IMG/VR virus record: IMGVR_UViG_3300035698_028037
Coordinates: 1-51,215 of that record
Strand: one strand, 5' to 3'
DNA from: a virus
DNA length: 51,215 nucleotides
The notes beneath the pieces are model-generated. The model was not told where the DNA came from. It searched no databases and saw nothing but the letters and a program-made list of their open reading frames with translations. Shown here one piece after another: positions 2,310 to 38,011 of this stretch; the stretch's first letter is position 1, and every line of letters starts with the position of its first letter. The position numbers and the translations under genes were made by a program.

Positions 2310-4820
2310 TCATACGGACTGGAGGTTACCCCACGATTCACCATATTTGATATCGACTGGGCCGAATGGGACTTTCGTTTCGAAATCAAGATGATTCTCC
2401 ATAGTGTCTTTCATCACCAATGCTGCTTCTCGTAGAGCCTCCTTCTCGATGAGTATCATGATACTATCATGGATCTGAGACCATCTCATGTATCTCATTC
2501 CTAACTCATCGAATCTCTGGCACGTCTTATAATATGCTCTGAATGTCATATCGCTCACGCTACCCTGGATAGGCATATTCACAGCCTGACGTTGAACTTC
2601 TGATCTCTGCTTCTTATCAGCGATCAAGCTAAATCGGCGCTTGCGACCATATAAAGATTGCACCTCATGCGTGAGCAAGACCTGCATCTTCATATTAGAT
2701 ATCCACCACTTGGCTGCTGGCATGATGCTCATCAGTCTATCTATTAGATGTTGAGCCTCCTTTTCAGATACACCTAATTGTGGAGCTAGGCCCTTAGCTC
2801 CTCTTCCGTATATGACTCCGAATACGATTGTCTTAGCTGCTCTACGTTTAATCTCCTTTTCCTCTTTAGATAGAGCATTCCACTCATCATCAGACAATCC
2901 ATATAATTGCTTGGCTACTGCCTCATGGATATCTCGTTCACAAATAGCTTGGATGAGATTATCATCCTTAGCGTAATGGCCAAGCATCCTGACCTCTGCC
3001 TGAGGATAATCCCCATATAGGATGAGGAAGCCAGGATCAGAAATATATATATCCTTTATGTCGTTATCACGAGGAGTGCCATGTAGATTCGGATTCGATG
3101 ATGATTGCCTGCCTGTCACAGTACCATGCAAACGCACGCTCGGCCTTATTCTACCGTCTTCCCACATCGAATCTCGTAGACCCTTGAAATAGGTGCCATA
3201 TTTCTTGCTTAGAAGACGATGCCTGACCATGAGCCTAGGATAATCGTGCTTCTGCGCCAACCAGAACAACATATATGTGCTTGTGGATCGAGAGGACATT
3301 CCTTCGAACGTGTGAACCGATTGTGTATGCCAGTATTCCTGAGCCTCGGGATCCTCTACACTTCGTATTTCGTCTAATAGAGTGATCTTATCTATGGTAT
3401 CTAGAGTGCCTCCTCCCATTTGATCTAATTCGAGATTACCCTCGCTCTTCTCACCATAGAGGTATTCTGCTACCTGTTTGGGGCTATTCGGATTTATGTC
3501 TTCTGCACCAGGGAAACCCCTCATTTGTTCTTCTATATCATTGATCTCCCTTAACCACTTATCGCCATTAGCCTCCAAGCGATCTTTGTCCACGAGCATA
3601 CCTGACATATATTGCTTCGTGAAATGGCCTGCTGCTGGCATCAGGAGATTGGTCATGACACTAATGTCTGTGTCATCCATTTCACTACGGAGATCATCTG
3701 TGAGTCTGCGAGTATAGTCTGCATCCGTAGCATTATAGGTTAGTAATTCCTCACGGTCTATGGATTTGACGTCCTTGATCTTATCTCCCATCTTATATGT
3801 AGGAGACTTATAATATGAGACAGCTAGCCTCTCTAGATCATGAACCCCTTTGCGTTCATCAAGGACATAGGACGCGAGCATAGTATCCCATTGATACTTC
3901 GGGCTTATTCCTTCTTGATATAGCCAGGGGATATCGAACATTCCGTTATGGAATGAGCATGAATGCGCGGACAATATGTCATTGAATCTTATCTTAAACT
4001 CTGGATGATCTCGGATAAGATCCCAGTCGAATGCTACTGCCGTCTCCCCTTTCCATGATAAGGCACATGATACTATATCCTTGCCAAGATATCGAAGGCC
4101 ATCTGTCTCAAGATCCACTGCTATTATACTATCAGAGGGTAGCGTCTCTAGGCGATCTAATAGCGCACTCATTCGTCTCATATTATGAGCAGATATGGTG
4201 ATATAAAAGTCTAATGGAGCTTCTATGGAGACAGGACCACCCTTGTAGATCTCTAAAGCCGTATCGAGATCTGAACATAGATCGGGGAAGCCATCGTTGA
4301 ATCTTAGTATGGCAGAAGGATGAATAGAGGAGATCATCACGCACTCATGCCCTGAGATATCTATGATCTTCGGCTTGCCTCTGGCCTTCCCTATAGCCTC
4401 CGTCTTGCTAGTGATAGCCAGATGGCCGAATTTCCCTAGGGGCATAACGATCTTCGGTTTGATCTTAGCCAGCTCATGAAAAAGCCGCTCACGGCAGCAT
4501 TTTATCTCCTTTGATGATGGATCCCTATTTTTGGGAGGCCTGCACATGACAGAGTTGGTATAGTATATCCTCTCGACTTCTACTCCAACCTCAGTCATAG
4601 TCCGTCTGAGTAGCTGACCTGATCTACCAACAAATGGCTTACCCTTCTTTACCTCATCTGATCCTGGAGCCTCTCCTACTACAGCTATGTAACCTTGGCC
4701 GTCACCAGATGGAGGTACTAAGGGCTCATCTTCAAGAGTGCATTCTGAGCATTTAGCGTATGGTAACTTCACGATGGATTGCTCCTCATGAGAGGGCAGG
4801 TTCGGATTCCATGATAGCAT
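2310..4820 (-). CDS. Fusion: family 4 uracil-DNA glycosylase + family A DNA polymerase
   Basis: This 836-residue replicative polymerase has three modules. Residues 1-200 are a family 4 uracil-DNA glycosylase: paired cysteines in KCSECTL, the motif VVGEAPG...KPFVGRSGQLL, further cysteines in SVMCRPP and IKCCRE (four Fe-S ligands), and motif 2 IHPSA. Residues about 205-390 are a 3'-5' exonuclease: VDLETDG (exo I), FHNGMFD (exo II), YNATDAD (exo III). The rest is the polymerase: motif A GDYPQAEVRM, motif B RRAAKTIVFGVIYG, motif C QIHDSIMIL. All catalytic acids are present. There is no 5'-3' exonuclease domain. A glycosylase-like domain fused to a polymerase is also reported, as I recall, for SPO1-type phages. 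The fusion suggests uracil surveillance at the fork. Confidence 0.93.
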   Translation of the reverse strand: MLSWNPNLPSHEEQSIVKLPYAKCSECTLEDEPLVPPSGDGQGYIAVVGEAPGSDEVKKGKPFVGRSGQLLRRTMTEVGVEVERIYYTNSVMCRPPKNRDPSSKEIKCCRERLFHELAKIKPKIVMPLGKFGHLAITSKTEAIGKARGKPKIIDISGHECVMISSIHPSAILRFNDGFPDLCSDLDTALEIYKGGPVSIEAPLDFYITISAHNMRRMSALLDRLETLPSDSIIAVDLETDGLRYLGKDIVSCALSWKGETAVAFDWDLIRDHPEFKIRFNDILSAHSCSFHNGMFDIPWLYQEGISPKYQWDTMLASYVLDERKGVHDLERLAVSYYKSPTYKMGDKIKDVKSIDREELLTYNATDADYTRRLTDDLRSEMDDTDISVMTNLLMPAAGHFTKQYMSGMLVDKDRLEANGDKWLREINDIEEQMRGFPGAEDINPNSPKQVAEYLYGEKSEGNLELDQMGGGTLDTIDKITLLDEIRSVEDPEAQEYWHTQSVHTFEGMSSRSTSTYMLFWLAQKHDYPRLMVRHRLLSKKYGTYFKGLRDSMWEDGRIRPSVRLHGTVTGRQSSSNPNLHGTPRDNDIKDIYISDPGFLILYGDYPQAEVRMLGHYAKDDNLIQAICERDIHEAVAKQLYGLSDDEWNALSKEEKEIKRRAAKTIVFGVIYGRGAKGLAPQLGVSEKEAQHLIDRLMSIMPAAKWWISNMKMQVLLTHEVQSLYGRKRRFSLIADKKQRSEVQRQAVNMPIQGSVSDMTFRAYYKTCQRFDELGMRYMRWSQIHDSIMILIEKEALREAALVMKDTMENHLDFETKVPFGPVDIKYGESWGNLQSV

Positions 4821-4845: not shown

Positions 4846-5949
4846 TTAGATCATGATAGATCTTTCATTCGCTATCATAGTAACGGGTATGAGCGTATAT
4901 CTGTTTATCATTTGTGCTATCCTAGATACGGCCATCTCATTCCAATATATGAATTCATATATCGGAATGATCTTCCGAGACATTTCATCTTGAGCTGGAA
5001 TAGATCCATGAGGATCTCCCTTATATCCTGTGCATATGGCTAATTCATTGAGGCATTGAAGCGCATCCACCTTACATAGAGCTATCTCTGTGATACCTGA
5101 GACTCTAATGGCATAGCCTAGCGCAGGTAGATCGAGCCAGCCTATCCGTCTAGGCCTTTTGGTATTGGTGCCATATTCGTTACCCTGATCTCTGATAAGA
5201 CCTCCGGTCGCTTCCTCGATCTCTGTAGGGAGCGCCCCAGCCCCTACCCTGGTGATATATGGCTTGACCACGCCAATGATCTTCCTTACCATCTTAGGAG
5301 AGACTCCAAGGCTATGACAAGCTGCTGCGGCAGTACATGCTGACGATGTGACGAACGGATATCCCCCATGATCAATGTCTAGCATAATGCCGTGAGCCCC
5401 CTCTACCAGACAGAAACTATGATTATGCAAGGAGGTATCACAGATATTAGCCTTACGACGTATGTTAGGATAGGCACTGAGATTTACATCGCATAGTCGG
5501 AAATTGCTCCTGGAGTATTTGTCCGCATACGCAGGCCCATTCCCACTCAATGTCGTCCCTATTGGGTTCTCTCGCTCTTCCTCTTCAGAAACATCTTGAT
5601 CTCTGTGGGCTTGCGTCTTTATATGACATCGACCGTCGATATGGAGAGTCCATTCCTTAGGTTTGTCATAAAGCTTGATCGCATCCTCTACTCTCTCTAT
5701 TTCTCTATCCAATCTGGTTAGGTCTATCATGCACCCTCTAGCTATCACACAGTGCATGCCATGCATTGATCCTATAGGCACCTGATTGAATGCAAACTTG
5801 TCTCCATTTTTGAACATCACTGTATGACCTGCATTGTCACTACCGTTGACTCTAGCGCAGGAATCATATATGCCTGTCGAGCATAGGTAATCTACGATGC
5901 GTCCCTTACCTTCATCTCCGAATTGTGCTCCGAGTACTATGTCGAACAT
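4846..5949 (-). CDS. Adenylosuccinate synthetase family protein (PurA/PurZ-like)
   Basis: This 367-residue GTP-dependent ligase family member joins aspartate to a 6-oxopurine nucleotide. The GTP loop GAQFGDEGKGR keeps the catalytic Asp (D12), and NAGHT keeps the catalytic His (H42). Also visible are IGTTLSGNGPAY, MLDIDHGGYPFVTSS, TRVGAGALPTEI, GNEYGTNTKRPRRIGWLD and the base-recognition motif CKVD. It is about 60 residues shorter than bacterial PurA. The hairpin before NAGHT reads NGSD instead of the usual GGHN/GGP-type sequence. Phage PurZ enzymes making 2-aminoadenine DNA are homologues; the phiVC8-type, as I recall, replaces the catalytic Asp by Ser, which is not the case here. Substrate (IMP or dGMP) is therefore open. 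GGGGTGA precedes the ATG. Confidence 0.85.
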   Translation of the reverse strand: MFDIVLGAQFGDEGKGRIVDYLCSTGIYDSCARVNGSDNAGHTVMFKNGDKFAFNQVPIGSMHGMHCVIARGCMIDLTRLDREIERVEDAIKLYDKPKEWTLHIDGRCHIKTQAHRDQDVSEEEERENPIGTTLSGNGPAYADKYSRSNFRLCDVNLSAYPNIRRKANICDTSLHNHSFCLVEGAHGIMLDIDHGGYPFVTSSACTAAAACHSLGVSPKMVRKIIGVVKPYITRVGAGALPTEIEEATGGLIRDQGNEYGTNTKRPRRIGWLDLPALGYAIRVSGITEIALCKVDALQCLNELAICTGYKGDPHGSIPAQDEMSRKIIPIYEFIYWNEMAVSRIAQMINRYTLIPVTMIANERSIMI

Positions 5950-6235: not shown

Positions 6236-6934
6236 CTACAACATTAGATCAAGAACTTCTGATCGAGGTTCTGTCCCATTACGAGCTGCCATTTCGTGAA
6301 TCCATGGACAATTATCAAGGGCTGTCTGTATCACCCAGTCAACCGGATACTCGCTTCCATTCTGAGGTTCCATAAACCTCAATATAGGTTCAGATTTCGT
6401 CGGTTCGACCATATAGTTAATGCCATGATAGCCTACTGGAGTTGCCACGATAATCATGTTGCTGCTGATACCCCACCATGACTCGTGATACGCTACCTGC
6501 CCACCGAGTGCTCTGGCGAACCATTCACAATCATGCAACTCCGGTATGTATTCGTGCGTATGTATCTCACTCCAGATTAATAGAGCCTTTAGGCTCTCGA
6601 AGTCTGTCCCTCTGAAGTGGCCACTACCAAGCTTGATCTTATTGGCATTCACCACGTCGATACCGAACTTGTCTACGACGACCTGGGTAATCTTGAGAGC
6701 AGACAGTGATCCTAGGATATTCGGAGGTGGAGGCAAGGATCGAACGTTAGCAGCCTGACAGGTTGATGCCATCTCTCTATAGGCATCACGTTCAGCAGTC
6801 CTATCCTGTACTGTTCTCTGGAGATGGACTATCTCTAGGTTACGTCTATTCGCTCCTGATTCTAGGCCTTTGACGTCTGTCCGAAGTTTTCGTAGTTCCT
6901 GTTCCCTTTTAATGCAATACACTAGGGGATTCAT
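6236..6934 (-). CDS. Cysteine peptidase/transglutaminase-like protein with N-terminal coiled coil
   Basis: This is a 232-residue protein. Residues 8-55 form a predicted coiled coil rich in R, E and L. The C-terminal half has ordered Cys, His and Glu/Asn motifs: LHDCEWFA (C136), GYHGINYMVE (H170) and RFMEPQNG (E189, N192). This order resembles transglutaminase-like/papain-fold peptidases of phages (D.NDC..FA, then GH..N, then EPQ). Such proteins have been suggested to act on cell wall or host protein, but the substrate is unknown. The gene overlaps the end of dpdA by 26 bases and has AAGGAGG before its start. As no lysozyme or amidase was recognised in the genome, it is a candidate lysis or entry hydrolase. 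Confidence 0.6.
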   Translation of the reverse strand: MNPLVYCIKREQELRKLRTDVKGLESGANRRNLEIVHLQRTVQDRTAERDAYREMASTCQAANVRSLPPPPNILGSLSALKITQVVVDKFGIDVVNANKIKLGSGHFRGTDFESLKALLIWSEIHTHEYIPELHDCEWFARALGGQVAYHESWWGISSNMIIVATPVGYHGINYMVEPTKSEPILRFMEPQNGSEYPVDWVIQTALDNCPWIHEMAARNGTEPRSEVLDLML

Positions 6935-7655
6935 GTACTTCCTCCTTCCATATACGGATATTCCTGCTCAAAAGTTTATTATTAAGGGTTATGTCTAGAT
7001 CGAGTTTCACGTCAGGACGTCCGATCTTCATCTCTTGGCCTATCTGCGCGTATAGGGTCGAAATGCTGCTATCAACACCCTCTACACGATCTGGAAATAA
7101 CCTATTTATCTCAGCCATCTCCCTTCTGACTCCAGTATAGCCAAGTAGATGGATACGCACGTTCCTCAGAAGATTCAGATTAGAAATGATGTCTAGAGCC
7201 CATATCCTAGAAGGAAATAGGTCAGGCACTATGAACTTTGAGATCCCGATGGTATCTACTCCCCAGGAGCACATCTCAACGGCGCATGACGTCCACTCAT
7301 CTATATTCTTGCCATGAGGTACGCCCATGAGATTAAGAGTGGGCATCATCCTGTTTGCTTTCGTGAATGCCTCATGTGAGAGGCGCATAGTTGCCTCTGC
7401 ATCATGGATGACATCAGGCAATACCATCTCTTGGCAGCCTAGCATCCTTACCACAGATAACAGAGAATCGATCTTCATAGGGACTCCATTCTCAGCTGCA
7501 CCGTTATCTAGGATAACGAACTTGCCTCCTCGAACCTGCTTTCTGAAGAAGAATTCATAGGCCCAATTATTCATTTGATGCGCTAGGCATAAATGATATT
7601 CCTCTCCATTCTCCATCCATAGGTGGGCCGTCGGAAGGATAGTTGCGATTTTCAT
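6909..7655 (-). CDS. dpdA: DNA guanine transglycosylase (phage DpdA)
   Basis: This 248-residue paralogue of tRNA-guanine transglycosylase is expected to swap guanine in phage DNA for a 7-deazaguanine base. Diagnostic motifs are VILDNGAAENG (D50, the counterpart of the TGT substrate-site Asp), LPDVIHDA, MGVPHGKNIDEW, TIGISKF, HLLGYTG and GVDSSIST (D195, likely nucleophile). The length fits short phage-type DpdA rather than the large bacterial dpd-island enzyme. AAGGGGG lies before the ATG at 7655. The folE, queD, queE and queD-like genes lie upstream in the same operon, separated only by nrdJ. The subfamily (DpdA1-DpdA4) cannot be fixed by eye. Confidence 0.88.
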   Translation of the reverse strand: MKIATILPTAHLWMENGEEYHLCLAHQMNNWAYEFFFRKQVRGGKFVILDNGAAENGVPMKIDSLLSVVRMLGCQEMVLPDVIHDAEATMRLSHEAFTKANRMMPTLNLMGVPHGKNIDEWTSCAVEMCSWGVDTIGISKFIVPDLFPSRIWALDIISNLNLLRNVRIHLLGYTGVRREMAEINRLFPDRVEGVDSSISTLYAQIGQEMKIGRPDVKLDLDITLNNKLLSRNIRIWKEEVHESPSVLH

Positions 7656-9739: not shown

Positions 9740-10300
9740 CTACCTTTCTCCCCTCCGCATAAGGCTGAGACATTCCTGCCTTGCTGCTGGAGAATCTTTG
9801 AATATACCCCTAACGGCAGAGGTGATAGTAGACGAACCATCAGCCTTGGCACCTCGGAAGGAGATACACGCATGCTGAGCCTCAATCATAACACAGCATC
9901 CGTAGGGTTCAATATGCTCCATAAGAGCATCAGCTACATCACGAGTTATCCTCTCCTGTATCTGGAACCCTCTACTAGCAGCGTGAATCAATCTGGCCAA
10001 CTTGCTGATACCTAAAAGCTTCTTCCTGGGTATGTATGCTATGTGAGCCCTGCCCCAGAATGGAAGGAGATGATGCTCACAATATGATGAGAAGAGAATA
10101 TCTCTGACCATCACCATCTCATCATATTTTTCCTCATCGAATACTCGATATAGTTCTGGATCGGAAGGGGTGCATTGCTCTATGAAGGAATCTGCCACTC
10201 TGGTGGGTGTGTCCTTCAGACCCTCTCTTGTGATATCTTGTTCCAGGGCCAGAAGGATCTCAGTGACGGCATTAGCTATCCTTTGCCTATCCAATATCAC
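9740..10300 (-). CDS. folE: GTP cyclohydrolase I
   Basis: This 186-residue type IA enzyme converts GTP to dihydroneopterin triphosphate, the first step to 7-deazaguanines. It shows the zinc and catalytic motif FSSYCEHHLLPFWG (C74, H76, H77), the core GISKLARL, QIQERIT, and the zinc Cys/His segment EAQHACISFRGAKADGS. Length and motifs are those of an intact enzyme. Its ATG overlaps the stop of queE (4-base overlap), and the queD-like gene starts 7 bases downstream, so the three are translated as a coupled block. Confidence 0.95.
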   Translation of the reverse strand: MILDRQRIANAVTEILLALEQDITREGLKDTPTRVADSFIEQCTPSDPELYRVFDEEKYDEMVMVRDILFSSYCEHHLLPFWGRAHIAYIPRKKLLGISKLARLIHAASRGFQIQERITRDVADALMEHIEPYGCCVMIEAQHACISFRGAKADGSSTITSAVRGIFKDSPAARQECLSLMRRGER

Positions 10301-10968
10301 ACTCCTCTCTTATTGCCCCAAATGACCTTATGTAGTTGGATGCTCAAGCGGATGTCTCTGTTGATGCAGAATCCAGCTACTCTCTCTAGCCATATCCGAG
10401 GAGACGGCATAACTGGGCTCACGATCACATTCTGATATAGGCTTAGGAAGTTAATCCAGGAGACTGCCTCATTCAGATCTTCTTCATCTGCCACGACGAA
10501 CTTGATCTGATCACACGACCTACCCTTCATCGGCCTGGTCCAGGCTCTTATCGTGCTACGGAAACTCTCATTCCCTGAGGAAGGTAGCTTCACATCAATG
10601 ACCCAGCTATCTACCAAAGGGATGAGCTCATTACCAAAAGGCAGTTTGAGAAATGCCCAGGAAGGAGGATATATGGATCCATTACTCTCGATCTCTATGA
10701 AATGATGCTTATGGAGCCTCCTGACAAGAAGTTCCAATTCATCTTGTTGGACTAGAGGCTCACCTCCTGTGATACATATCCATTTCTTAGACGGATTGAT
10801 ATCCGTTATCGGAATATCTTGAGTATCGTCATCAACCTGAGCATAGGCTGTATCACACCATTGACAGGGAGGATCCATATTGCAACCTGCTAGGCGGATG
10901 AATGACATCGGGATTCCAGCATGAATGCCTTCGCCCTGTATGCTATCGAAGGTTTCTATGATCTTCAT
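10297..10968 (-). CDS. queE: 7-carboxy-7-deazaguanine synthase (radical SAM)
   Basis: This 223-residue radical SAM enzyme rearranges carboxy-tetrahydropterin (CPH4) to CDG. It shows FDSIQGEGIHAG, a cysteine cluster GCNMDPPCQWCDT (C29, C35, C38) and ITGGEPLVQ. The spacing C-x5-C-x2-C is shorter than the long spacing of the best-studied QueE and should be noted. I chose the ATG at 10968 because GGAGG lies 5 bases before it; an in-frame ATG at 10980 would add four residues. It overlaps the end of queD by 26 bases. Confidence 0.92.
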   Translation of the reverse strand: MKIIETFDSIQGEGIHAGIPMSFIRLAGCNMDPPCQWCDTAYAQVDDDTQDIPITDINPSKKWICITGGEPLVQQDELELLVRRLHKHHFIEIESNGSIYPPSWAFLKLPFGNELIPLVDSWVIDVKLPSSGNESFRSTIRAWTRPMKGRSCDQIKFVVADEEDLNEAVSWINFLSLYQNVIVSPVMPSPRIWLERVAGFCINRDIRLSIQLHKVIWGNKRGV

Positions 10969-11335
10969 CATTGCCTCCATAATATTTCACGCAGCACTCT
11001 GGGCTTTCCCATACTGTGATCCTAGCGAGTGTGACAGATGGAGGGAGGTGGTTTATCATATCTTCGAATATTCTCCGAGCTAGCCACTCTGCGGTAACAT
11101 TAGCCTCATGGAGAGTTTCATTCAGGACATAATGATCGTATTTCTTATTGAGATAGTCCTTCAGTATCTCCTTGATCTCAGCGAAGTCCACGAGCATATT
11201 ACGCGAGTCAAGGGTATCTCCCTTCAATACCACCTCTACTTCCCAACGATGGCCATGCATGCGATTACATTTACCTTCGTAATCAGCGATGAAGTGCGCA
11301 GCGTCGATATGAGTCTTGACCTGCAATCTGAACAT
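10943..11335 (-). CDS. queD: 6-carboxy-tetrahydropterin synthase
   Basis: This 130-residue enzyme converts dihydroneopterin triphosphate to CPH4. Zinc histidines are H14 (DAAHFI) and H27/H29 in CNRMHGHRWEVEV, with the catalytic C23 present. MLVDFAEIK, YDHYVLN, and the C-terminal ITVWESPECCVKY (catalytic Glu) complete the family pattern. TAGGAGG precedes the start. Together with folE and queE this gives a full route from GTP to CDG. QueC, which would make preQ0, was searched for by eye on both strands and not found. Confidence 0.93.
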   Translation of the reverse strand: MFRLQVKTHIDAAHFIADYEGKCNRMHGHRWEVEVVLKGDTLDSRNMLVDFAEIKEILKDYLNKKYDHYVLNETLHEANVTAEWLARRIFEDMINHLPPSVTLARITVWESPECCVKYYGGNDEDHRNLR

Positions 11336-13499: not shown

Positions 13500-13949
13500 C
13501 TAGAATGGGATATCGTCCCCTCCGTCTTGGGTGACTCTGACTGAGGCCTTAGCTGAACTGCCTCCAGTTCCAGCATCTGGGAGGACATTGGAGACTGACG
13601 CGCCCTCCTTCTCCTCACCAGAATCCCGATCTCGATACTTACGCTTGACCACGATGAGTAGCGCAGTCTTGCCATGAAGCTTCTTGGTATCGACATCGAC
13701 ATCGCCATCGAACCCAAAGGCCTTGAGATGGGTCTTGAGGCCTCCAAGAGCGTGATCTAGTAGGGAAGTATAGCTACTGATCATCCTACCTCCACTCTCT
13801 CCACCGACGACTTCCCACTTCCATACCAACATCGGGTTCCCATCGTGGCTGGTATCGTTGTTGCATTCCACGAGCTTCCCTCGATGCTTACCAGGCTCGG
13901 GCGCTACGAAATCCGGTATCTCGTCCATGTTTACTCTGATTCGCGCCAT
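13500..13949 (-). CDS. Single-strand-binding-like protein (DUF669-like)
   Basis: This 149-residue protein has a predicted OB-like beta-rich body (MLVWKWEVVGGESGGR, TALLIVVKRKYRDRD), a low-complexity linker and the C-terminal tip GGDDIPF. An acidic tail ending DDIPF is the signature of bacterial SSB proteins, which recruit partner enzymes through it. It therefore most likely coats ssDNA during replication or recombination. Its stop is followed by the DUF5679 gene, and its ATG overlaps the stop of the FAD oxidoreductase gene. Confidence 0.75.
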   Translation of the reverse strand: MARIRVNMDEIPDFVAPEPGKHRGKLVECNNDTSHDGNPMLVWKWEVVGGESGGRMISSYTSLLDHALGGLKTHLKAFGFDGDVDVDTKKLHGKTALLIVVKRKYRDRDSGEEKEGASVSNVLPDAGTGGSSAKASVRVTQDGGDDIPF

Positions 13950-15286
13950 TATGACACCTCCTTTCTCACATCTTCAGCGGCTACCATGCCACTGAGGGCA
14001 GCGGCTACGAAGCTATCGAGATAACCACTTCCACTGCCAATCACGTACAGGTTTCTGATGTCCTTGCACCTCCATTCATTTGTGATATTCATCCTCTTAC
14101 CATAGTACTTCATTTCTGGACCGAATATAATAGCTTTGTCCGAGATGAAATTTGGAACTAGCTTATCCATCTCTAAGATGAATCCTCTGAACGCATGTAA
14201 TAGAGGATCAGGTAAAAGGTCAGAGATACGAAGGAGGTTACTCTGGCTGTTAGTCATATAAGAATCATCGAAGGGCATATTCCTACCTAGGAAGTCTCCT
14301 AGAGGTTGAAATGCTGAGCCACCTGCCATATATGTGATATGATGTGCCAGGTGCCTAACTAGTTCCTGAGGAGGCAAGAGCAATCCCTCTGGCACTTTTA
14401 TCATGATCGCCATGTTAGACGAGCGGGATTTCCGAAAGTCGCTTAGATACGAATGTCCGTTCACATTGACTATATCTAGATCTGTATGCCTTTCGTTGAT
14501 CACATATCCATTCTGGTTACAACAGAAGGATCGCACTACGAATCCTAATGAGGATTCATATATGATTTTGTAATCGTAGAACTGCTTGTGGAGGCCAGAT
14601 AGCACTTCTGCACTCGTCTCGAATCTCAGGCCGAATCCAGCTGGTCCAGAGCTAAGAGGAGAATTGATAGATCTCATTAGGTTCTCAATCCACGGGATGC
14701 CCTGGAGCCCAGCAGCTATTATCGTAATATCTGCTTCTTTGAGATCTCCGTCTACTATTACTCCTCTGCATTCCTTGGTAGCCACATTGACATGAGGAGA
14801 AGCGATACTCCTATATAAGATCTTAACCCCATTGGCCATGAGATTATTCGTGAATCCTCTGACGAATCTTCTTATTCCATCCGATCCCACGTGCCTAAGA
14901 GGATAGCTTTCGAATCTCAGGAAATGTGAGTCTCTGAATGCCTTCGGAGGCTCGGGCAAAGGATCGTACCAGACTCCTGCGCCAGCGAATCTCACTATGG
15001 CCCTATCGATCTTATGGAGCTTACGTTCCTCTTCTGATCTGAACACAGATTCCATTTGGGTGCCACGAGTGAGAGAATACGTGTTCTTACCATCAGATAA
15101 GCCTCCAGCACCTCCCTCGCCTTCCAATATCTGGCAGATCTTACATGAGTCACAACCGGTCTCAGGACATACTCGATCCTCAATCGGATATCCCGTCTCG
15201 TATATTGTGACATCAGCATGGCCCGAGAGTGCATCAGCACAGAAGAGACCTGCTGGACCAGATCCTACGATCGCAACTTTTTTCAT
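13949..15286 (-). CDS. FAD-dependent dehydrogenase (COG2509-like)
   Basis: This 445-residue flavoprotein has the N-terminal Rossmann FAD motif VAIVGSGPAGLFCADAL, then a cysteine segment CPETGCDSCKICQILEG and EGGAGGLSDGKNTYS. That order is typical of the uncharacterised FAD-dependent dehydrogenases of COG2509. The C-terminus has the second FAD-contact motif YVIGSGSGYLDSFVAAALSG. The substrate is unknown. Its place inside the replication and deazaguanine operon makes a role in base modification or redox support possible, but nothing proves it. The leader is unusual: a structured RNA (15300-15433) ends next to the GAGGAG ribosome site. Confidence 0.85.
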   Translation of the reverse strand: MKKVAIVGSGPAGLFCADALSGHADVTIYETGYPIEDRVCPETGCDSCKICQILEGEGGAGGLSDGKNTYSLTRGTQMESVFRSEEERKLHKIDRAIVRFAGAGVWYDPLPEPPKAFRDSHFLRFESYPLRHVGSDGIRRFVRGFTNNLMANGVKILYRSIASPHVNVATKECRGVIVDGDLKEADITIIAAGLQGIPWIENLMRSINSPLSSGPAGFGLRFETSAEVLSGLHKQFYDYKIIYESSLGFVVRSFCCNQNGYVINERHTDLDIVNVNGHSYLSDFRKSRSSNMAIMIKVPEGLLLPPQELVRHLAHHITYMAGGSAFQPLGDFLGRNMPFDDSYMTNSQSNLLRISDLLPDPLLHAFRGFILEMDKLVPNFISDKAIIFGPEMKYYGKRMNITNEWRCKDIRNLYVIGSGSGYLDSFVAAALSGMVAAEDVRKEVS

Positions 15287-15455: not shown

Positions 15456-16259
15456 TTATGATCCCATCTCCACTATTTTCTGGATGGTTGGTTCCCAGAT
15501 CTGTCGCAATCCGCTGCCTCTGTTCTTGGCCAGATATCTGATACCATTCTCATTGATATAGGAATCGGTTAGGAGATGTCTCCTATTGACGACTTTTATA
15601 TTGCCCTCTCCATCATCTACTTGCACAGGAATGTTTGATAATCTGGCCAGTACATCTACGTAGGCACCACTCTCCGATGACAACTGACCAGAGAACATAG
15701 GGGCGATCAGATCGCGTTTCTCATCTATCTTCTCTAGGCAGGTCATGAAGACATGAATACGATCCCCACCCTCTTTCGTATAGGCCAACTCTTTGAATGC
15801 GCGAATGAACTTGCGCATTTGATCTCCAGTCTTGAGCCAATCCTGCCTGGTTGGTACTACTGTACCTCCCAGATCCGTATAATCACTCTGACCATCCTTG
15901 ATATCTCTCAGTATCGTCCCTAGACTATATTTCTTCTGAAGTTCTGTGAGACTATCAATTCCGAGTGCCTTATAATGATGGTTATCATGTCGGAAGAAGT
16001 CATATATGTCCTGTATCTCTCTCCATGAGAGAGGCCTTACTATATCGACATTCTTGCCTTTCAGAGTTTTAGTACCTCCCTCGACATCCATCAATAGGAA
16101 TGGTGTCGTCGGTGGATAGTCTATGGCAGTACCAAGGAGATAAGTCTTACCAGACCCTGTTTCTCCATATATGATCGTATTGATGAACTCCGTATCCTCC
16201 GGTCGCTCAACAGCGAATGGGAGATCTGGGGATTCACTCTGTACCGGTCGCTTTGGCAT
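15456..16259 (-). CDS. RecA-fold AAA ATPase (AAA_24/Sak4-like recombination protein)
   Basis: This 267-residue protein starts at the ATG at 16259, supported by GGAGGG 6 bases upstream (an earlier ATG at 16307 overlaps the lipoprotein gene). It has Walker A YGETGSGKTYLLG, Walker B-like LLMDVEGG, and ALGIDSLTEL. These match the phage nucleotide-binding AAA_24 group, which includes Sak4-type single-strand annealing or recombinase proteins. It lies next to the SSB-like and nuclease genes, in keeping with a recombination module. Confidence 0.82.
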   Translation of the reverse strand: MPKRPVQSESPDLPFAVERPEDTEFINTIIYGETGSGKTYLLGTAIDYPPTTPFLLMDVEGGTKTLKGKNVDIVRPLSWREIQDIYDFFRHDNHHYKALGIDSLTELQKKYSLGTILRDIKDGQSDYTDLGGTVVPTRQDWLKTGDQMRKFIRAFKELAYTKEGGDRIHVFMTCLEKIDEKRDLIAPMFSGQLSSESGAYVDVLARLSNIPVQVDDGEGNIKVVNRRHLLTDSYINENGIRYLAKNRGSGLRQIWEPTIQKIVEMGS

Positions 16260-16269
16260 CCTTACCCTC

Positions 16270-16704
16270 CTATTTTCTGTCTTGTCCTGCCTTCTTACAT
16301 AGGTCATTCATGATCACCAAGAGTTTAGCCTCATCCTCAGTAGGAGGATCACTCATCATGCTCTCTAGCATATTCATACCTGGGCCGCAAACTAGACCTG
16401 CTCCTTCTCTTTCGATACGAGCCTGCTCTGTAGCACGTATTTCTGCTATAGTATTGGTTTCCCCAAAGATCGTTATGAGTTCGTTATCAGCAGGTATCAA
16501 GACACCCGTAGTCGTCTGCTCTTGTGTCGATGTCGTAGGTGATATCTGCTCTTGTATTGATATCGTAGGGGATGCTTGTGTCGTAATAGAAGGAGATACC
16601 TGCTCTTGTATCGTAGTAGAAGGAGATGCTTGTGTCGCAGTAGAAGAGGAGCATCCGACTGACAGTAAGGTAACTAAGATAATAGCGATTAGTATCCTTT
16701 TCAT
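16270..16704 (-). CDS. Repeat-bearing lipoprotein
   Basis: The 144-residue protein has a short lipoprotein-type signal (MKRILIAIILVTLLSVGCSS) with a slightly atypical lipobox SVGC. A Thr/Ser/Gln-rich linker follows, built of about two and a half 18-residue repeats (TQASPS..IQEQVSPSI type) at roughly 16500-16640. A short C-terminal domain with two more cysteines completes it. It would be anchored outside the membrane. Phage lipoproteins often block superinfection or serve lysis; either is possible here. CTAGGAGGT precedes the ATG. It interrupts an otherwise DNA-metabolism operon. Confidence 0.8.
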   Translation of the reverse strand: MKRILIAIILVTLLSVGCSSSTATQASPSTTIQEQVSPSITTQASPTISIQEQISPTTSTQEQTTTGVLIPADNELITIFGETNTIAEIRATEQARIEREGAGLVCGPGMNMLESMMSDPPTEDEAKLLVIMNDLCKKAGQDRK

Positions 16705-16767: not shown

Positions 16768-17640
16768 TCATCCCCTCTGATTATATGTCTCCGCCAGTAA
16801 ATAGCGATAGTCCTCGCCGAGCATATAAGCTCGACATATGGGCTGGAAATCACACTGAGAACAACGCACCAGGTTCGGAGATGGATAGATTGCGAAATCC
16901 TCACGCTTAGATTCCATATATTGCCAATATGCTCTATGGAGGAAGATGTCGATCTGTCTTTGATTCCGATAGATCTTAACTCGCTCGAATAGCTTGTTCT
17001 TCACCCTGGACGACGGCAGTTGCTTGCGCAGGCCGTTGTATATGACCCCAGACATCTCTCCTTCGAATCCCTTCTTCTCAGCAGCAGCTTGAGCCACGAA
17101 CGTCTGAGCTGTCATCTGATGATCTAGATCTAGGAAATTGGGAGAGAATTGTGAGAAGGTCTTATGTTCCAGGCTGAATAAACGACCGGTCTGATTATCT
17201 CTGACGAGCCCATCTAATCTCACAGAAACAGAGCAGACTGGATCTGAACATCCCTCAGGTGGAGGCAGAGGCCTGGTCATGAACTGCTCCGTGGCAAGCA
17301 CCTCGAAATCGTCCTTCGGATATTCCTCTAGATACCCTGTGAGCATCCCCACTCCAAGATTCTTCATATCGAAAAGCTCATTAGCTGCATCAGGATACTC
17401 TACGCCAATCTCATGGATACGCTTGTCCGCCCATAACTCAAAGGATTTGATAGGATCCTTCTTTTCCCCATAATACTGCTCCAGGGCATAGTGGATCCCT
17501 GTTCCGAATTCGAGAGCCGAAGATGAACGATGAGGCTTATATCCCTTGCGATAGCTCAAATACCATGCGAATCGACAACTCATGGCATCAAGCTGACTTG
17601 GCGATATTGTATCTGCTTTTTCTAGCTTCTGTCTTCCCAT
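16768..17640 (-). CDS. PD-(D/E)XK nuclease, Cas4/RecB-like with Fe-S cysteines
   Basis: This 290-residue nuclease has the N-terminal SPSQLDAMSCRFAWYLSY motif, SVRLDGLV and FSLEHKTFS (catalytic D, E-x-K), and a C-terminal cysteine cluster RCSQCDFQPIC. Together with the N-terminal C22 this gives the four-cysteine Fe-S arrangement of Cas4/AddB-type exonucleases. It probably resects DNA ends for the recombination ATPase encoded downstream. TAGGAGGG overlaps the end of the SNF2 gene just before its start. Confidence 0.88.
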   Translation of the reverse strand: MGRQKLEKADTISPSQLDAMSCRFAWYLSYRKGYKPHRSSSALEFGTGIHYALEQYYGEKKDPIKSFELWADKRIHEIGVEYPDAANELFDMKNLGVGMLTGYLEEYPKDDFEVLATEQFMTRPLPPPEGCSDPVCSVSVRLDGLVRDNQTGRLFSLEHKTFSQFSPNFLDLDHQMTAQTFVAQAAAEKKGFEGEMSGVIYNGLRKQLPSSRVKNKLFERVKIYRNQRQIDIFLHRAYWQYMESKREDFAIYPSPNLVRCSQCDFQPICRAYMLGEDYRYLLAETYNQRG

Positions 17641-17646
17641 GTTATC

Positions 17647-19209
17647 TCACCCTCCTACTATCGTTTGGCATCTGGCTTTCATCCTCTTAATAAGCTCATT
17701 CGTGCTCATCTTCCCTTTCTCACGAATGATGTCTTCGATGTAATCCTCGATCGTATCAACGCTCTTAATCACGATGATCTCTACTTCACTCTCCTGCCCT
17801 ATCCTATGAATACGTTTCATCGCATGTCTATTACCAGCTGGATGCCATGCTAGATCGAGGAAGATCGCTCTCTTCGCTTGAGTGAGAGTGAGGCTCTCTC
17901 CTCCCGTCTTATGTGTAATGATGAGGACACGGAAATCCGATCCGAACTTCTCTTTGACTTCATCTCGGTTTCTAGTCCTCCCCGTGAGCATATCACATGA
18001 AATCCCACATCTACTCAGCTTGTTACATATGATGTCCGCAGCTTGCTCGAAAGACGTGAATATGACTGCTGGCTCTTCGCGTCCGATCAGCAACTCGACC
18101 AACATATCGATTTTATCTGGGCCGTCATAGTCGTCAAATAGTAGTCTCGGGCTGATCGCCAGTTGGCGTAGCCTGGTGATCTGTGCCACTTTGACTCTGG
18201 CAGAGACAGTTGAGTCTTCGAAAGTAGATATCCATTCCTCTTCCATTGGTTGATATAGGGATCTATGATCCTTAGGGAGGATATAGTCTACTTTCTGACG
18301 TATAATATCAGGAAGTTCTTTGACGCTCTCATCTCGATGCAACATATAAGGTGATATCATTCTATGGAGATTATCGTTCTCTCGTTCCTTAACGCCTTCG
18401 ATCTTCATTCCGAACCCAGAGTTAATAACCTCAAAGAATCTGAAAATGTAACTCCAATAGGAGGAGAACCGATCAGGATCACATAGGTGAAGCAGCGTCC
18501 ACATATCACAATCTGAATTGACTGTTGGAGTCGCTGTGAGCAAGAACAGATAATCGATATCCCCAGCTATCTTCCTGAGGATCTTGAAAGCCTGCGTCTT
18601 ACGATTCCGAATATGATGAGCCTCGTCTACTATTAGGATATCAAGGTGAGAAGATCTTAGAGTGCTAATATTATCGTAGTTTACGATGGACGTCTGACTA
18701 GAATCTTGATGGCTAACGACGGCTACTCCCCTATTAGGATCATGACGCATCTCACCTAACGAGAAATAGGTACTCATGTGCCATGCCCAGCTAGATATAT
18801 TGCTACTGTTGCAGATGATGCCAATGTGGAGAGGATCATTCCCTCTCAGAAGAGAGCAGGCAGCGGCTGCCTCAACGGTCTTGCCCAGTCCCTGATCATC
18901 TGCGAGGATCCCCTTCTTGATAGCGATGAGCCATTTCGATCCGACTCTCTGATACGGATATAAGCGTTTATCCCCATCATCATCTTTTCGAGATCGAATA
19001 TCATAGAGGGTTTTTTGATGATCCTTTACCTCTCGCATCCTACTCTCAAGCTCGCCACTCATATTCAAACCTGGATTGCGATTGAGGAGTCGTCTTAGGA
19101 TATCACCACATATGGGAAAAGATCGAGTCTGTTTGAACGGGCAGAGTTCTGATGGTATTCGAACTTCTACGCCTGCGAACATGCGATCATGATAGAGATA
19201 AACTATCAT
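17647..19209 (-). CDS. SNF2-family DNA-dependent ATPase/helicase
   Basis: This 520-residue protein has YPYQRVGSKWL (Q motif-like), ILADDQGLGKT (motif I), LIVDEAHHIRN (II), LFLLTATP (III), IFTSFEQAADI (IV), ITHKTGGESLTLTQA (V), and LAWHPAGNRHAMKRIHRIGQ (VI), which are diagnostic of SNF2 enzymes. No extra nuclease domain is present. Such phage proteins are thought to remodel replication or recombination intermediates. It follows the RuvC-like gene by 4 bases. Confidence 0.93.
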   Translation of the reverse strand: MIVYLYHDRMFAGVEVRIPSELCPFKQTRSFPICGDILRRLLNRNPGLNMSGELESRMREVKDHQKTLYDIRSRKDDDGDKRLYPYQRVGSKWLIAIKKGILADDQGLGKTVEAAAACSLLRGNDPLHIGIICNSSNISSWAWHMSTYFSLGEMRHDPNRGVAVVSHQDSSQTSIVNYDNISTLRSSHLDILIVDEAHHIRNRKTQAFKILRKIAGDIDYLFLLTATPTVNSDCDMWTLLHLCDPDRFSSYWSYIFRFFEVINSGFGMKIEGVKERENDNLHRMISPYMLHRDESVKELPDIIRQKVDYILPKDHRSLYQPMEEEWISTFEDSTVSARVKVAQITRLRQLAISPRLLFDDYDGPDKIDMLVELLIGREEPAVIFTSFEQAADIICNKLSRCGISCDMLTGRTRNRDEVKEKFGSDFRVLIITHKTGGESLTLTQAKRAIFLDLAWHPAGNRHAMKRIHRIGQESEVEIIVIKSVDTIEDYIEDIIREKGKMSTNELIKRMKARCQTIVGG

Positions 19210-19213
19210 GATC

Positions 19214-19579
19214 TCACTTGCCCCATGACTCTATGTATGACAAGACGTGTGTCCTTGCAGAGTATATATGAGGGCTGAGCCCTCTTGGTTTTCTCTTACC
19301 TTGCAATATAGAAGGATTGCTTCGTACCACATCTATCTGGACGGCCTCGGCATACATTTCACATATGCCAATGGCCTTGAGAGGAGGTTCCATGCTGACG
19401 ACTGGGTTGCCCAATACTGATTCCACGATGAGTAGATCTGGCGATGCTTTGTGAAGGGCATTCCATAACAATAGAAGGGATGTGACCTCAGTCTCTAGAG
19501 ATACTATCCCATCTACTATTAGTGATAGACCGGTCGTGGATCCAGGGTCAACACCGAGTAGTCTCACGTTGTAAATCAT
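19214..19579 (-). CDS. RuvC-like Holliday junction resolvase
   Basis: This 121-residue RNase H-fold protein has LLGVDPGSTTG (D11), LLIVESVLG (Glu) and a C-terminal SPHIYSARTHVL helix with conserved-type His residues. This is the acidic-residue order of phage RuvC-like resolvases. It is shorter than RuvC (about 170 residues), as in many phages. It is the first gene of the long leftward operon; the promoter should lie in 19580-19729. Confidence 0.78.
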   Translation of the reverse strand: MIYNVRLLGVDPGSTTGLSLIVDGIVSLETEVTSLLLLWNALHKASPDLLIVESVLGNPVVSMEPPLKAIGICEMYAEAVQIDVVRSNPSILQGKRKPRGLSPHIYSARTHVLSYIESWGK

Positions 19580-19979: not shown

Positions 19980-20016
19980 ATTGTTAGTGGACGGAACGAT
20001 GAAGAAGGAGAACAGG

Positions 20017-20415
20017 ATGACAGAGAGAGGGGAAGCAGGATACCAGGGATCGAAGTGGATCCGAAGAGAGAAGAGACTGGCCATCTACGTTCGAGACGGA
20101 CTGGCCTGCGCCTACTGCGGAGCCACGATCGAGGACGGCGCGATCCTGACCCTCGATCACCTGATCCCTTACAACAAGAATGGAGGAAACCACGAGAGCA
20201 ACCTGGTAACGGCCTGCCGGAGATGCAACTCCTCCAGGCAGGATCGACCGGTAGCTAAGTTCGCTAGGACAATCGCAGAGTACCTGAACGGAGGTACGAC
20301 CGCCGAGATGATCACCAGCCACGTCAGGAACTGCCAGAGACGGCAGATCAATGTGGAGGCAGCCAAAGAGATCATAGCGAAGAGAGGCAGCTGGCAGGCT
20401 GCCATGAACGGATAG
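20017..20415 (+). CDS. HNH endonuclease
   Basis: This 132-residue protein has an HNH core: LACAYCGATIEDGAILTLDH with LIPYNKNGGNHESNLVTACRRCNSS. It shows two CxxC zinc pairs and the catalytic His in LDHL. I chose the ATG at 20017 because AAGGAG lies 7 bases upstream (an ATG at 19999 and an earlier TTG are in frame). Free-standing HNH proteins in phages may be homing nucleases or packaging-associated; it is far from the terminase genes here. Confidence 0.85.
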   Translation: MTERGEAGYQGSKWIRREKRLAIYVRDGLACAYCGATIEDGAILTLDHLIPYNKNGGNHESNLVTACRRCNSSRQDRPVAKFARTIAEYLNGGTTAEMITSHVRNCQRRQINVEAAKEIIAKRGSWQAAMNG

Positions 20416-20424
20416 AGGAACAAG

Positions 20425-20619
20425 ATGAACAGGAATAGAGACTGCCAGGGATGCGAATACAATACTCCAATGTCGAAGGGAGGACTCGGAAGGATATGCA
20501 ATGGCAATACTCAGCCTGAGAGATGCCCAGAGTGGGCTATCAAGGAATATCGGAGAGAGATGAGACCTAGGATCTTAGTAATGTCAGACGTATCTGCATA
20601 TATGAGAGGAGTCAGATGA
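20425..20619 (+). CDS. Small cysteine-containing protein
   Basis: The 64-residue protein contains CQGCEYN near the N-terminus plus two more cysteines (RICNG, ERCPEW), enough for one zinc site. It is not assigned to a family. Its stop overlaps the next start (ATGA at 20616-20619), indicating coupling with the Spo11-like gene. Confidence 0.65.
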   Translation: MNRNRDCQGCEYNTPMSKGGLGRICNGNTQPERCPEWAIKEYRREMRPRILVMSDVSAYMRGVR

Positions 20620-21872
20620 ACCATCAAGACCGTAAGACACAGATCCTGAACGAAGCCGAGGGTAGAGGTCTCACAACGAAGGATATCAAAGTCCTTTTCA
20701 CAGATCCTTATCTGGTTGGCACGGAGGGAGAATATCGAGATTCCAGATGGGCAGCCAATCTCTGGGAAGAGATGATGGACAGCAGGCAGAAACCCCTTCA
20801 CATCAGAGGGTTTCACTACTGGGTTCAGAGTCGCAGGGTGCGCAAGCCCAACGGCAAGATCTACGGTGATGACCCTATCAAGGACTGGAGATGGCTCACG
20901 AAGGCATGTCAGATCGCACGATACCTGGAGATCGGAGGGTGGAAGGGACTCGTTGATATGAAGCACCCCGAGATCACTGACTACGATCAGTATGATGACC
21001 CCGAGATCAACCTTCATATCACTGACAGTACCGTGGAGGATGCTGTAAAGGGAGATCTCAGCAACATGGTAGATGATCTGATGAATAGGGCCAGGTCTAT
21101 GGCTCCAAGATACAATCACGATGGGTATCAGACTTATCATACGGAAGTCTGGTGTGAGAAAGGATCAATGGGGTTCATTATCAACCCAGTATGCAAGCGC
21201 AACGGCGCAGCATATCAGCCTTTAGTCGGCCAGTCGTCCGTCGAGAAGGTCGAAATGCTTGTGAGGAGGATAATTAGAGCCATAAGAGCAGATAAGAAAG
21301 TCCGCATATGGTACATAGCTGACTGGGATCGATATGGATGGAGCATGGTGACAGCAGTAGCGAGGAAGCTGGAGTTCATAATGGTAAGGGATGGCATCGA
21401 AGCGGATGTCAAACTCACCAGGCTAGCCCTGAATGAGGAACAGATAAACAAATATGGTCTCCCGAAGGCACCGAAGCTGGGAGAAGCCGTGGTCGAGTTG
21501 GATGCTCTAGAGGCCATTCATCCTGGTGAGCTGAGTAAGATCATCAAGGACACAATCAATCCCTATGTGGATCGTCATAATCCGCAGATAGTGAGGGAAG
21601 AGAACGATCGGATGGAAGAGAGGCTTCAGGAGATACTAGAGGAAATGCTACGACCGGTCTTGGAAGCAGCCCTGGACGATATCTCTCTGAAATTCGAGGG
21701 AGATGTCGATATCAACCTGAGAGACTGCTTAGATCCAGAATTCACTCCACCTGAGAGGGATCATGAAGTGGATGAGGACGACGACTGGGTGTTCGATAGC
21801 AACCGTGATTGGTTTGAACAGCTAGAGAGGTTCAAGGAGTACAAGGAATCCAGAGAAGAAGAGGCAAGATAG
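20616..21872 (+). CDS. Spo11/topoisomerase VI A-like protein (winged helix + Toprim)
   Basis: This 418-residue protein has an N-terminal winged-helix-like part with LHIRGFHYWVQSR, where Y68 is in the place of the catalytic tyrosine of topoisomerase VI A/Spo11. DWRWLTKACQIARYLEIGGW follows. The middle has a Toprim domain: EVWCEKGSMG (E181) and IWYIADWDRYGW (D236, D238), then ALNEEQINKYGLP and AVELDALEAIHPGEL. The last 80 residues are acidic and coiled. No GHKL ATPase B subunit is encoded. This matches the idea of 'Mini-A' proteins described in mobile elements. It may cut or nick DNA for recombination or replication initiation. Confidence 0.72.
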   Translation: MNHQDRKTQILNEAEGRGLTTKDIKVLFTDPYLVGTEGEYRDSRWAANLWEEMMDSRQKPLHIRGFHYWVQSRRVRKPNGKIYGDDPIKDWRWLTKACQIARYLEIGGWKGLVDMKHPEITDYDQYDDPEINLHITDSTVEDAVKGDLSNMVDDLMNRARSMAPRYNHDGYQTYHTEVWCEKGSMGFIINPVCKRNGAAYQPLVGQSSVEKVEMLVRRIIRAIRADKKVRIWYIADWDRYGWSMVTAVARKLEFIMVRDGIEADVKLTRLALNEEQINKYGLPKAPKLGEAVVELDALEAIHPGELSKIIKDTINPYVDRHNPQIVREENDRMEERLQEILEEMLRPVLEAALDDISLKFEGDVDINLRDCLDPEFTPPERDHEVDEDDDWVFDSNRDWFEQLERFKEYKESREEEAR

Positions 21873-23898: not shown

Positions 23899-24864
23899 AT
23901 GGCTACAATAGGAGAACGTTGGGACAAGCTGGAAGTATCAGAGAGGATCCAGATAGCAGAAGCAGCTGGGATGGCAGGTAGAATCGGCTCGGCTAGCTGG
24001 GATGGACTCCATGAGTTCGATAGAGAGACATTGAACGAGTGGAGTAATCAGAGTGCCATAAAGGATCCAAACCAGGGGGCGCTTAATGAGCAAGAAGTGG
24101 CCTCGAGCGAGCAGGTATTAGTAACCAGCCAAGACGACAACATTGATATGCCTGCTGAGGCTCCTGGACAGGACTATCTCCTATGGGTAGGATGTCAGAG
24201 CTACCTCACGATAGAATCCTTTATCGAAGAGGCAATCTCCCTCGGTGTGAGCAGACGAATTAGTAAAGTACCACGGAATCTTGAACTTGGCAAGAGCAGG
24301 ATATTCCTAGCTCATGATGAGGGAGAGACTGGAGATGCCGTTATATTCGGATACTTCATTCCTACGGCAGTTGAGATCGTAGTCTACAGAGATGGTGAGA
24401 ATGGAATCCCTGATAACCTCAAGGGTGTAGCCACGCCTATCACAGTAGAGAAGGCGAGTAATGAGCCAGAGAGAGGGTGCGGATTCAGAGACGATATAGG
24501 AGCAATATACCTGGTCTCTGATGAACTGGAGGAGCTCAAGCCCTATCGAGATTATAATCTCATCATCGATGACAGGGCTCGTAGGTTCAGAGGCATCAAG
24601 AAGGTGAACGGGGATAAGATCATAGGTGGTCGGACTAAGAAGGCTCCATCTGTGATCCATAGGGTAGCAAGGAGTAAGCAACTTCATAGGAAGGGAGGAG
24701 AGCCCTGGACGGATGAAGAGAGGGAGATACTGAGAGAGCTACTGAAGAAGTTTGGCCCGTGGAGAGCTACACGAGAAATGCACAAGATCACGGGAAGATC
24801 GATCCAAGGGACATACTACCAGTACAGCAAAATGAAGAAAGAAGGAGAGCAGGCAGATGTGTAA
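23899..24864 (+). CDS. Unknown protein with C-terminal SANT/Myb-like DNA-binding motif
   Basis: This is a 321-residue protein. Residues about 1-90 are acidic and partly helical. A middle domain begins QDYLLWVGCQSYLTIESFIE and continues with SLGVSRRISKVPRNLELGKS and FGYFIP; I do not recognise it. The C-terminus (EPWTDEEREILRELLKKFGP, then RATREM..ITGRSIQGTYYQ) has the tryptophan and helix spacing of a SANT/Myb-like helix-turn-helix. It may be a DNA-binding regulator. AAGGAGGG precedes the ATG. Confidence 0.7.
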   Translation: MATIGERWDKLEVSERIQIAEAAGMAGRIGSASWDGLHEFDRETLNEWSNQSAIKDPNQGALNEQEVASSEQVLVTSQDDNIDMPAEAPGQDYLLWVGCQSYLTIESFIEEAISLGVSRRISKVPRNLELGKSRIFLAHDEGETGDAVIFGYFIPTAVEIVVYRDGENGIPDNLKGVATPITVEKASNEPERGCGFRDDIGAIYLVSDELEELKPYRDYNLIIDDRARRFRGIKKVNGDKIIGGRTKKAPSVIHRVARSKQLHRKGGEPWTDEEREILRELLKKFGPWRATREMHKITGRSIQGTYYQYSKMKKEGEQADV

Positions 24865-37447: not shown

Positions 37448-38011
37448 ATGGATCAGATAGGGACATTACTCAAGTATCACTCACGGTGGATGGTTCGTCA
37501 CTGGCGACGGGTCGATGGCATCTGGCAAATAATCTGGGAAGAGGCCAAGGGAACACCGAACATCCTGCACACCACGGGAGAGAATGCCATATTGTCGGCA
37601 TTCTTCGCTACGGCATTCTCCAACTATGGTGCACCTCCAGCTGACTGCCATCTTGGATTGGACAAGAGAGCTTCTCTTGCAGAGGGTGATACGCTAGCAA
37701 CTCTGGATGAGATCTCCAAGAGTGGATATGAGCGTAAGGCGCTGATATCTAGTGGAACAGGAGCAGGCGGACAGGATTGGGTGCTTGCGACACATAATGG
37801 CTATCAGGAAGTGACGAGCAAGACCATGACCTGGACAGCTGGTGAGAACTGGGTTGATGCGCTGAAGAACATCTTCTTCTGTACTGACCTTACAGCCGTC
37901 GTGGATGGAGATGGTGATCATCTCATCTGCTCCCTAGCGCTATCGGCAGATAGAACGTTGCTGAACGGAGATAAGCTCGAAGGTTCGATGATAATCGGCC
38001 TGTCAGAATAA
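37448..38011 (+). CDS. Hypothetical virion protein
   Basis: This 187-residue protein contains NILHTTGENAILSAFFATAF and LGLDKRASLAEGDTLATLDE. Such sequence is typical of minor structural proteins in metagenomic phages with an 'ENAILSAFFATAFSN' type helix. Its stop overlaps the start of the repeat protein (TAATGA at 38009-38014). It may anchor that protein to the capsid. Confidence 0.6.
   Translation: MDQIGTLLKYHSRWMVRHWRRVDGIWQIIWEEAKGTPNILHTTGENAILSAFFATAFSNYGAPPADCHLGLDKRASLAEGDTLATLDEISKSGYERKALISSGTGAGGQDWVLATHNGYQEVTSKTMTWTAGENWVDALKNIFFCTDLTAVVDGDGDHLICSLALSADRTLLNGDKLEGSMIIGLSE

Follow-up and report, generated by a model that had tools for sequence, protein, structure and literature searches.

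The 51,215-nt stretch of viral DNA analyzed here (IMG/VR record IMGVR_UViG_3300035698_028037; hereafter, the window) encodes a new, divergent member of Mini-A, a known, uncharacterized family related to the A subunit of topoisomerase VI (topo VI-A) and to Spo11. Reviews, including PMC7614492, describe Mini-A proteins as truncated Top6A homologs of viruses with no known function, and report no activity for any member of the family. We somewhat cautiously favor the reading that the window protein is a stand-alone topo VI-A/Spo11 homolog that cuts both DNA strands in a tyrosine-dependent, ATP-independent manner during viral replication or recombination.

The gene and the short open reading frame (ORF) that precedes it are located as follows:

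20425..20619, plus strand: 64-aa ORF with a 4-bp overlap with the Mini-A start
20616..21872, plus strand: Mini-A (topoisomerase VI A/Spo11-like) gene, identified by its open frame and by phrog_6247 and hhalign matches

The Mini-A frame is open across 418 codons, spanning exactly 20616-21872, and encodes 418 aa. Its start codon overlaps the stop of the 64-aa ORF (ATGA) and has a ribosome-binding-like GGAG upstream; translational coupling of the two is possible. A full-length relative (P0002, 65% identical) is encoded on another IMG/VR viral contig, L001, which also has two tail genes and a 321-aa gene in common with the window. Because this relative exists, we consider the window gene to be real, coding, and maintained. 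An opposite-strand ORF overlapping Mini-A (20511-21140) was dismissed as a shadow ORF, as conservation tracks the plus frame. Just upstream, 19981-20415 (plus strand) encodes an HNH protein with a partial match to the IscB/Cas9d HNH region (NF040563, E 2.4e-15, below the cut-off).

Pfam and NCBIfam returned no usable match for the window protein, which did match phrog_6247, "DNA topoisomerase," at E 1.4e-20. By hhalign, it matched a phage Mini-A profile that includes the protein of Pseudomonas phage NP1 (99.2% probability, E 1.2e-19) and a haloarchaeal plasmid profile (99.9%, E 3.2e-31, 407 columns). NP1 carries the named example of Mini-A (PMC7614492), and the window protein aligns with it at all motifs, at 21% identity. 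Thus, membership of the window protein in Mini-A, which the initial annotation had suspected, is near certain. The phage proteins (NP1 gp49, phrog_6247) share with it the winged helix with R-x3-Y, the Toprim E and DxD, the Q..P..P and ELDA motifs, and the absence of a B subunit. However, they are about 300 aa in length, whereas the window protein is longer, with N- and C-terminal extensions, and falls on a separate branch. The full window protein found no match by tblastn in phages at E 0.01, and phage relatives were recovered only with the P0002 core (residues 62 on) as query and a laxer limit. Scans of genome contigs contained no relative, and viral scans with the window/P0002 pair and with a haloarchaeal protein returned only L001 or nothing. 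The short phage form matches at least 560 IMG/VR stretches, and a lone Mini-A is common in phages.

A phylogenetic tree separates 44 phage sequences from a group (100/98) made up of the window protein, P0002, and nine proteins from haloarchaeal plasmids; with long branches and a midpoint root, we read this as a grouping and not as proven descent. The grouping is supported by the full-length profile match, which takes in N-terminal sequence as well as a C-terminal tail, both without counterpart in the 300-aa phage forms. The plasmid proteins (pR1SE, pHALXA03, pHTUR05, and others, annotated as hypothetical) share the full length, the N-terminal region, and the D-D..D-S-x-R tail with the window protein and are 24-28% identical to it. 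In contrast to the window gene, which belongs to a tailed virus and has no such neighbor, theirs sit on plasmids with adjoining MCM-type or Cdc6 genes.

The domains and candidate active-site residues map to the window as follows:

20721..20945, plus strand: winged-helix (5Y-CAP-like) domain, about residues 36-110, from AlphaFold models (pLDDT mostly 80-92); the topo VI-A alignment runs from here through Toprim
20805..20807, plus strand: R64, by motif the counterpart of Methanosarcina mazei (M. mazei) Top6A R102; invariant, with R-x3-Y spacing as in M. mazei TLRELYY
20817..20819, plus strand: Y68, candidate catalytic tyrosine (M. mazei Y106); invariant, RGFHY versus TLRELYY
21129..21575, plus strand: Toprim domain and following region, about residues 172-320, from AlphaFold models and the family-profile match to 1d3y
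21156..21158, plus strand: E181, predicted Toprim metal-site Glu (M. mazei E202); invariant
21321..21329, plus strand: D236-x-D238, predicted Toprim DxD (M. mazei D254, D256); invariant, aligned to D-G-D of 1d3y
21495..21497, plus strand: E294 in ELDAL, candidate for the M. mazei clasp Glu E342 (KAEQQA); invariant, E-x-x-A-[LF] pattern
21750..21851, plus strand: C-terminal tail (P..DD..DS.R), common to haloarchaeal plasmid Mini-A and absent from 300-aa phage Mini-A

The catalytic residue of M. mazei Top6A is Y106, the clasp consists of R102 and E342, and metal is bound by E202, D254, and D256; the topo VI tyrosine acts at the Toprim site of the partner subunit (PMC13040014). The corresponding motifs are TLRELYY and KAEQQAF in M. 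mazei, TLRQLYY and WELDAL in phage Mini-A, and HIRGFHY and VELDAL in the window protein, which agrees with M. mazei Top6A in motif order and in the R-x3-Y and D-x-D spacings. E294 may correspond to E342, judging from the motif rather than from a computed superposition. Across eight diverse homologs, which include those of phages LWP01, Pam3, NP1, and TCUEAP2 as well as haloarchaeal plasmid proteins (six of the eight at 20-28% identity), fifteen positions are invariant: R64, Y68, R102, E181, K182, G205, S208, D236, D238, G241, Q276, P283, P286, E294, and L295. Most of the fifteen, R64, Y68, E181, D236, D238, and E294 among them, remain invariant in 38 sequences. The residues that the initial annotation had picked out, Y68 in a winged helix and the Toprim acids E181, D236, and D238, are where it placed them.

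LWP01, Pam3, and NP1 were picked because their Toprim part alone matched by tblastn, and all three have R-x3-Y upstream of it. As the motif played no part in their selection, its presence is an independent test. We left out as evidence the R-x3-Y count in IMG/VR loci (80 of 80), one of the search patterns having contained R-x3-Y itself.

Structural comparison points to topo VI-A. The AlphaFold model has a mean pLDDT of 71 for the whole protein and 79 for the core (residues 30-329). The whole model ranks first with topo VI-A of Methanocaldococcus jannaschii (M. jannaschii; 1d3y, Z 10.2, 201 aligned, rmsd 5.0), and M. mazei 9o0g scores Z 10.0; with the core model, VIA-align places 1d3y at Z 9.7 (218 aligned, rmsd 5.6), and Foldseek ranks 1-3 are all M. 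mazei topo VI-A (probability 0.95-0.99, E 0.003-0.013). A Foldseek search of viral models found nothing meaningful. Topo VI-A chains align with the core at Z 8.8-9.7 over 216-225 residues, whereas other Toprim proteins align over about 113-148; DnaG, gyrase, MksG, and JetD come near in Z, but over the Toprim part only. Only topo VI-A chains superpose on both the winged helix and the Toprim domain. Since Z near 9-10 with rmsd near 5 is moderate, the evidence lies in rank, two-domain coverage, and motifs combined. At the sequence level, the kinship is distant: identity to topo VI-A is about 10-13%, a profile of the eight homologs has 1d3y as its sole PDB sequence match (E 0.068), and hhalign against five topo VI-A sequences yields weak matches confined to the Toprim part (probability 14-29%), so that strong profile membership in the topo VI-A family was not found.

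These comparisons bear directly on the reading that the window protein is an unrelated Toprim protein, of the primase, RecR, or DnaG kind, that has its tyrosine by chance. DnaG Toprim domains reach Z 8.7-9.2, and Pfam gives the window protein no topo VI match. However, the DnaG-type matches are confined to about 114 residues of Toprim, the R-x3-Y motif recurs in sequences found via Toprim alone, and the one PDB sequence match of the family profile is a topo VI-A. This reading is largely refuted and, in our view, very improbable. The proposal made from the sequence at the outset, a stand-alone topo VI-A/Spo11-like protein, thus holds, with both domains, motifs in order, and top structural rank; an unrelated Toprim family lacking the tyrosine, the outcome that would have spoken against it, was not encountered.

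Topo VI is an A2B2 enzyme, and no B partner, with its GHKL ATPase and transducer, turned up for the window protein. Topo VI-B (PF09239) and GHKL ATPase (PF02518) models matched none of 50 Mini-A records (the window and 49 others), and the same models were positive in control genomes (PF09239 in 4, PF02518 in 14). The window is a linear and possibly incomplete virus record, in which absence alone is no proof, and many of the other records are fragments; each single absence is therefore weak, and the total is strong. This bears out the initial view that no B-subunit gene is present. The window protein has two further features of Mini-A, no B subunit and a gene carried by a virus or mobile element, here alongside tailed-virus genes in a possibly incomplete record.

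Could the protein nonetheless act on viral DNA as a true topoisomerase, relaxing or decatenating it with an ATPase borrowed from the host or with none? The clasp Arg/Glu pair of topo VI appears to be kept in Mini-A, and one Topo VIII relaxes DNA without ATP (PMC7614492). Against this stands the absence of a GHKL gene from all 50 records. To our knowledge, most bacterial hosts of Mini-A phages are without topo VI-B, so phage Mini-A would have no obvious ATPase partner. We consider a topoisomerase unlikely; without a B subunit, a break-maker or regulated cutter is likelier than a strand-passing enzyme.

The neighborhood of the gene includes a set of recombination genes on the minus strand and a shared gene downstream:

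15456..16307, minus strand: Sak4-like single-strand annealing/RecA-type ATPase (phrog_124, E 1.2e-33; PF13479)
16768..17640, minus strand: Cas4/RecB-like PD-(D/E)XK nuclease (PF12705, E 2.7e-18)
17647..19209, minus strand: SNF2-type helicase (PF00176)
19214..19579, minus strand: RuvC-like resolvase candidate (DPGSTTG motif by eye; no Pfam or PHROG match)
23899..24864, plus strand: 321-aa protein with a weak Myb-like C-terminus (48% identity to its L001 counterpart; PF00249, E 0.0079, below the cut-off)

Two UvrD-like helicases are also encoded on the minus strand. In L001, the counterpart of the 321-aa protein gene lies directly 3' of Mini-A (the Mini-A ORF ends at 1627 and the next starts at 1629); found in L001 only, it was set aside as a general Mini-A partner. 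The NP1 Mini-A gene is immediately followed by a Sak4-like gene, and a Cas4-domain exonuclease and a helicase are encoded nearby. Sak4 was likewise rejected as an obligatory partner, a Sak4-like protein occurring in only about 6-11 of the 50 Mini-A records. Neighbors of phage Mini-A genes vary, some being RecE, RecT, helicase, or primase, and no conserved neighbor common to them was found. With no single shared partner gene, the pathway may differ between viruses.

The Mini-A gene sits where a plus-strand block starts, beside a strand switch, a frequent place for early genes. This position would also suit a nuclease aimed at cutting host DNA or at restricting rival viruses or plasmids in the manner of MksG or JetD (the Wadjet nuclease), with no role in viral replication. 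The Toprim fold of MksG and JetD is related to topo VI-A, and both match the Mini-A Toprim part (8b7f, Z 9.1, and 7til, Z 7.6, respectively). Yet the two lack the 5Y-CAP tyrosine (PMC10123090) that is invariant in Mini-A, no PADLOC defense model matches the window protein, no SMC partner gene was recognized in the window, and we found no contextual support for host-DNA cutting. A defense or host-directed nuclease is therefore a doubtful candidate. A GC-skew change near 18-20 kb was discounted as an origin signal: it coincides with the coding-strand switch and is thus no independent evidence.

That the protein binds DNA ends or genome ends to serve packaging or end protection, and makes breaks only secondarily or no longer at all, is quite improbable. 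A tyrosyl linkage could mark genome ends, and the C-terminal tail is conserved with no known use, but all catalytic residues of Mini-A are invariant, and the gene lies away from the tailed-virus structural genes (about 29.5-49.9 kb).

The window encodes several other proteins of interest. The minus strand carries a fused family A DNA polymerase with a 3'-5' exonuclease and an N-terminal uracil-DNA glycosylase-superfamily domain (2310-4820; PF03167, PF01612, PF00476) and an adenylosuccinate synthetase (4846-5949; phrog_1211, "2-aminooxy adenylosuccinate synthetase") that scores below the NCBIfam PurZ cut-off, keeps GDEGKG, and may be either PurA-like or PurZ-like. FolE, QueE, and QueD homologs in a row (9740-11335, minus strand) suggest 7-deazaguanine modification of viral DNA. 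An FAD-dependent oxidoreductase-like protein with weak matches only lies among the viral replication genes (13949-15286, minus strand). A gene at 6909-7655 may encode a transglycosylase, a candidate by eye that no family model matched. In the tail-gene region, an 832-aa protein (38011-40509, plus strand) has many imperfect SESDLxTFLD-type repeats.

Among the haloarchaeal plasmid relatives, an MCM-type or Cdc6 gene adjoins Mini-A in eight of nine cases (six Pfam-checked, two by annotation or position); the ninth, from Haloarcula JP-L23, has no MCM-type or Cdc6 gene within 3 kb. The adjoining MCM-type genes mostly encode the OB or N-terminal part only, with a full MCM in Halorussus and Cdc6 in pR1SE. 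The short MCM-like proteins of loci L005, L091, L092, and L098 have an OB domain (one also has the N-terminal domain) and no ATPase domain. Relative orientation of Mini-A and MCM/Cdc6 varies, so a single inherited operon does not simply account for their closeness; still, the plasmids are interrelated, and genomic adjacency is not function. A published survey of vesicle plasmids like pR1SE reports MCM or Cdc6 genes on them and never mentions a topoisomerase. The adjacency of replication genes to the archaeal relatives is a new point here, and it suggests that Mini-A helps to start DNA replication or recombination.

Altogether, the recombination set of the window, the Sak4-like neighbor in NP1, and the MCM/Cdc6 adjacency in haloarchaea give contextual support to a recombination or replication role, one of the two uses that the initial annotation had proposed, and from this context we infer such a role for the window protein. 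By analogy with topo VI/Spo11 chemistry, tyrosine-dependent cleavage is likely. Under the favored reading, two Mini-A subunits would form a homodimer, each using its Y68, with help from R64, to attack one strand of the DNA at the Toprim site (E181, D236, D238) of the other, where Mg is bound. The product would be a double-strand break with 5'-phosphotyrosyl ends, made with no need for ATP. The break would start or process viral DNA replication or recombination, and the ends would pass to the Cas4-like nuclease, the Sak4-like protein, and the possible resolvase of the virus.

Spo11 is a eukaryotic A-type break-maker that works without strand passage, as Mini-A would, and has an accessory B-like partner. 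More speculatively, tailed viruses and archaeal plasmids (the vesicle-borne pR1SE type among them) may generally use Mini-A in a Spo11-like way to start replication or recombination-dependent replication, so that a programmed double-strand break is linked to the local MCM/Cdc6 or phage recombination machinery; we give this wider scheme a fairly low probability. Mini-A is the nearest viral counterpart of bare Spo11, and a stand-alone type would reveal how an A subunit acts without its ATPase partner, which bears on the evolution of meiotic break formation. For haloarchaea and NP1-like phages, the adjacency to archaeal MCM-type and Cdc6 genes offers a concrete hypothesis, a part for Mini-A in replication start.
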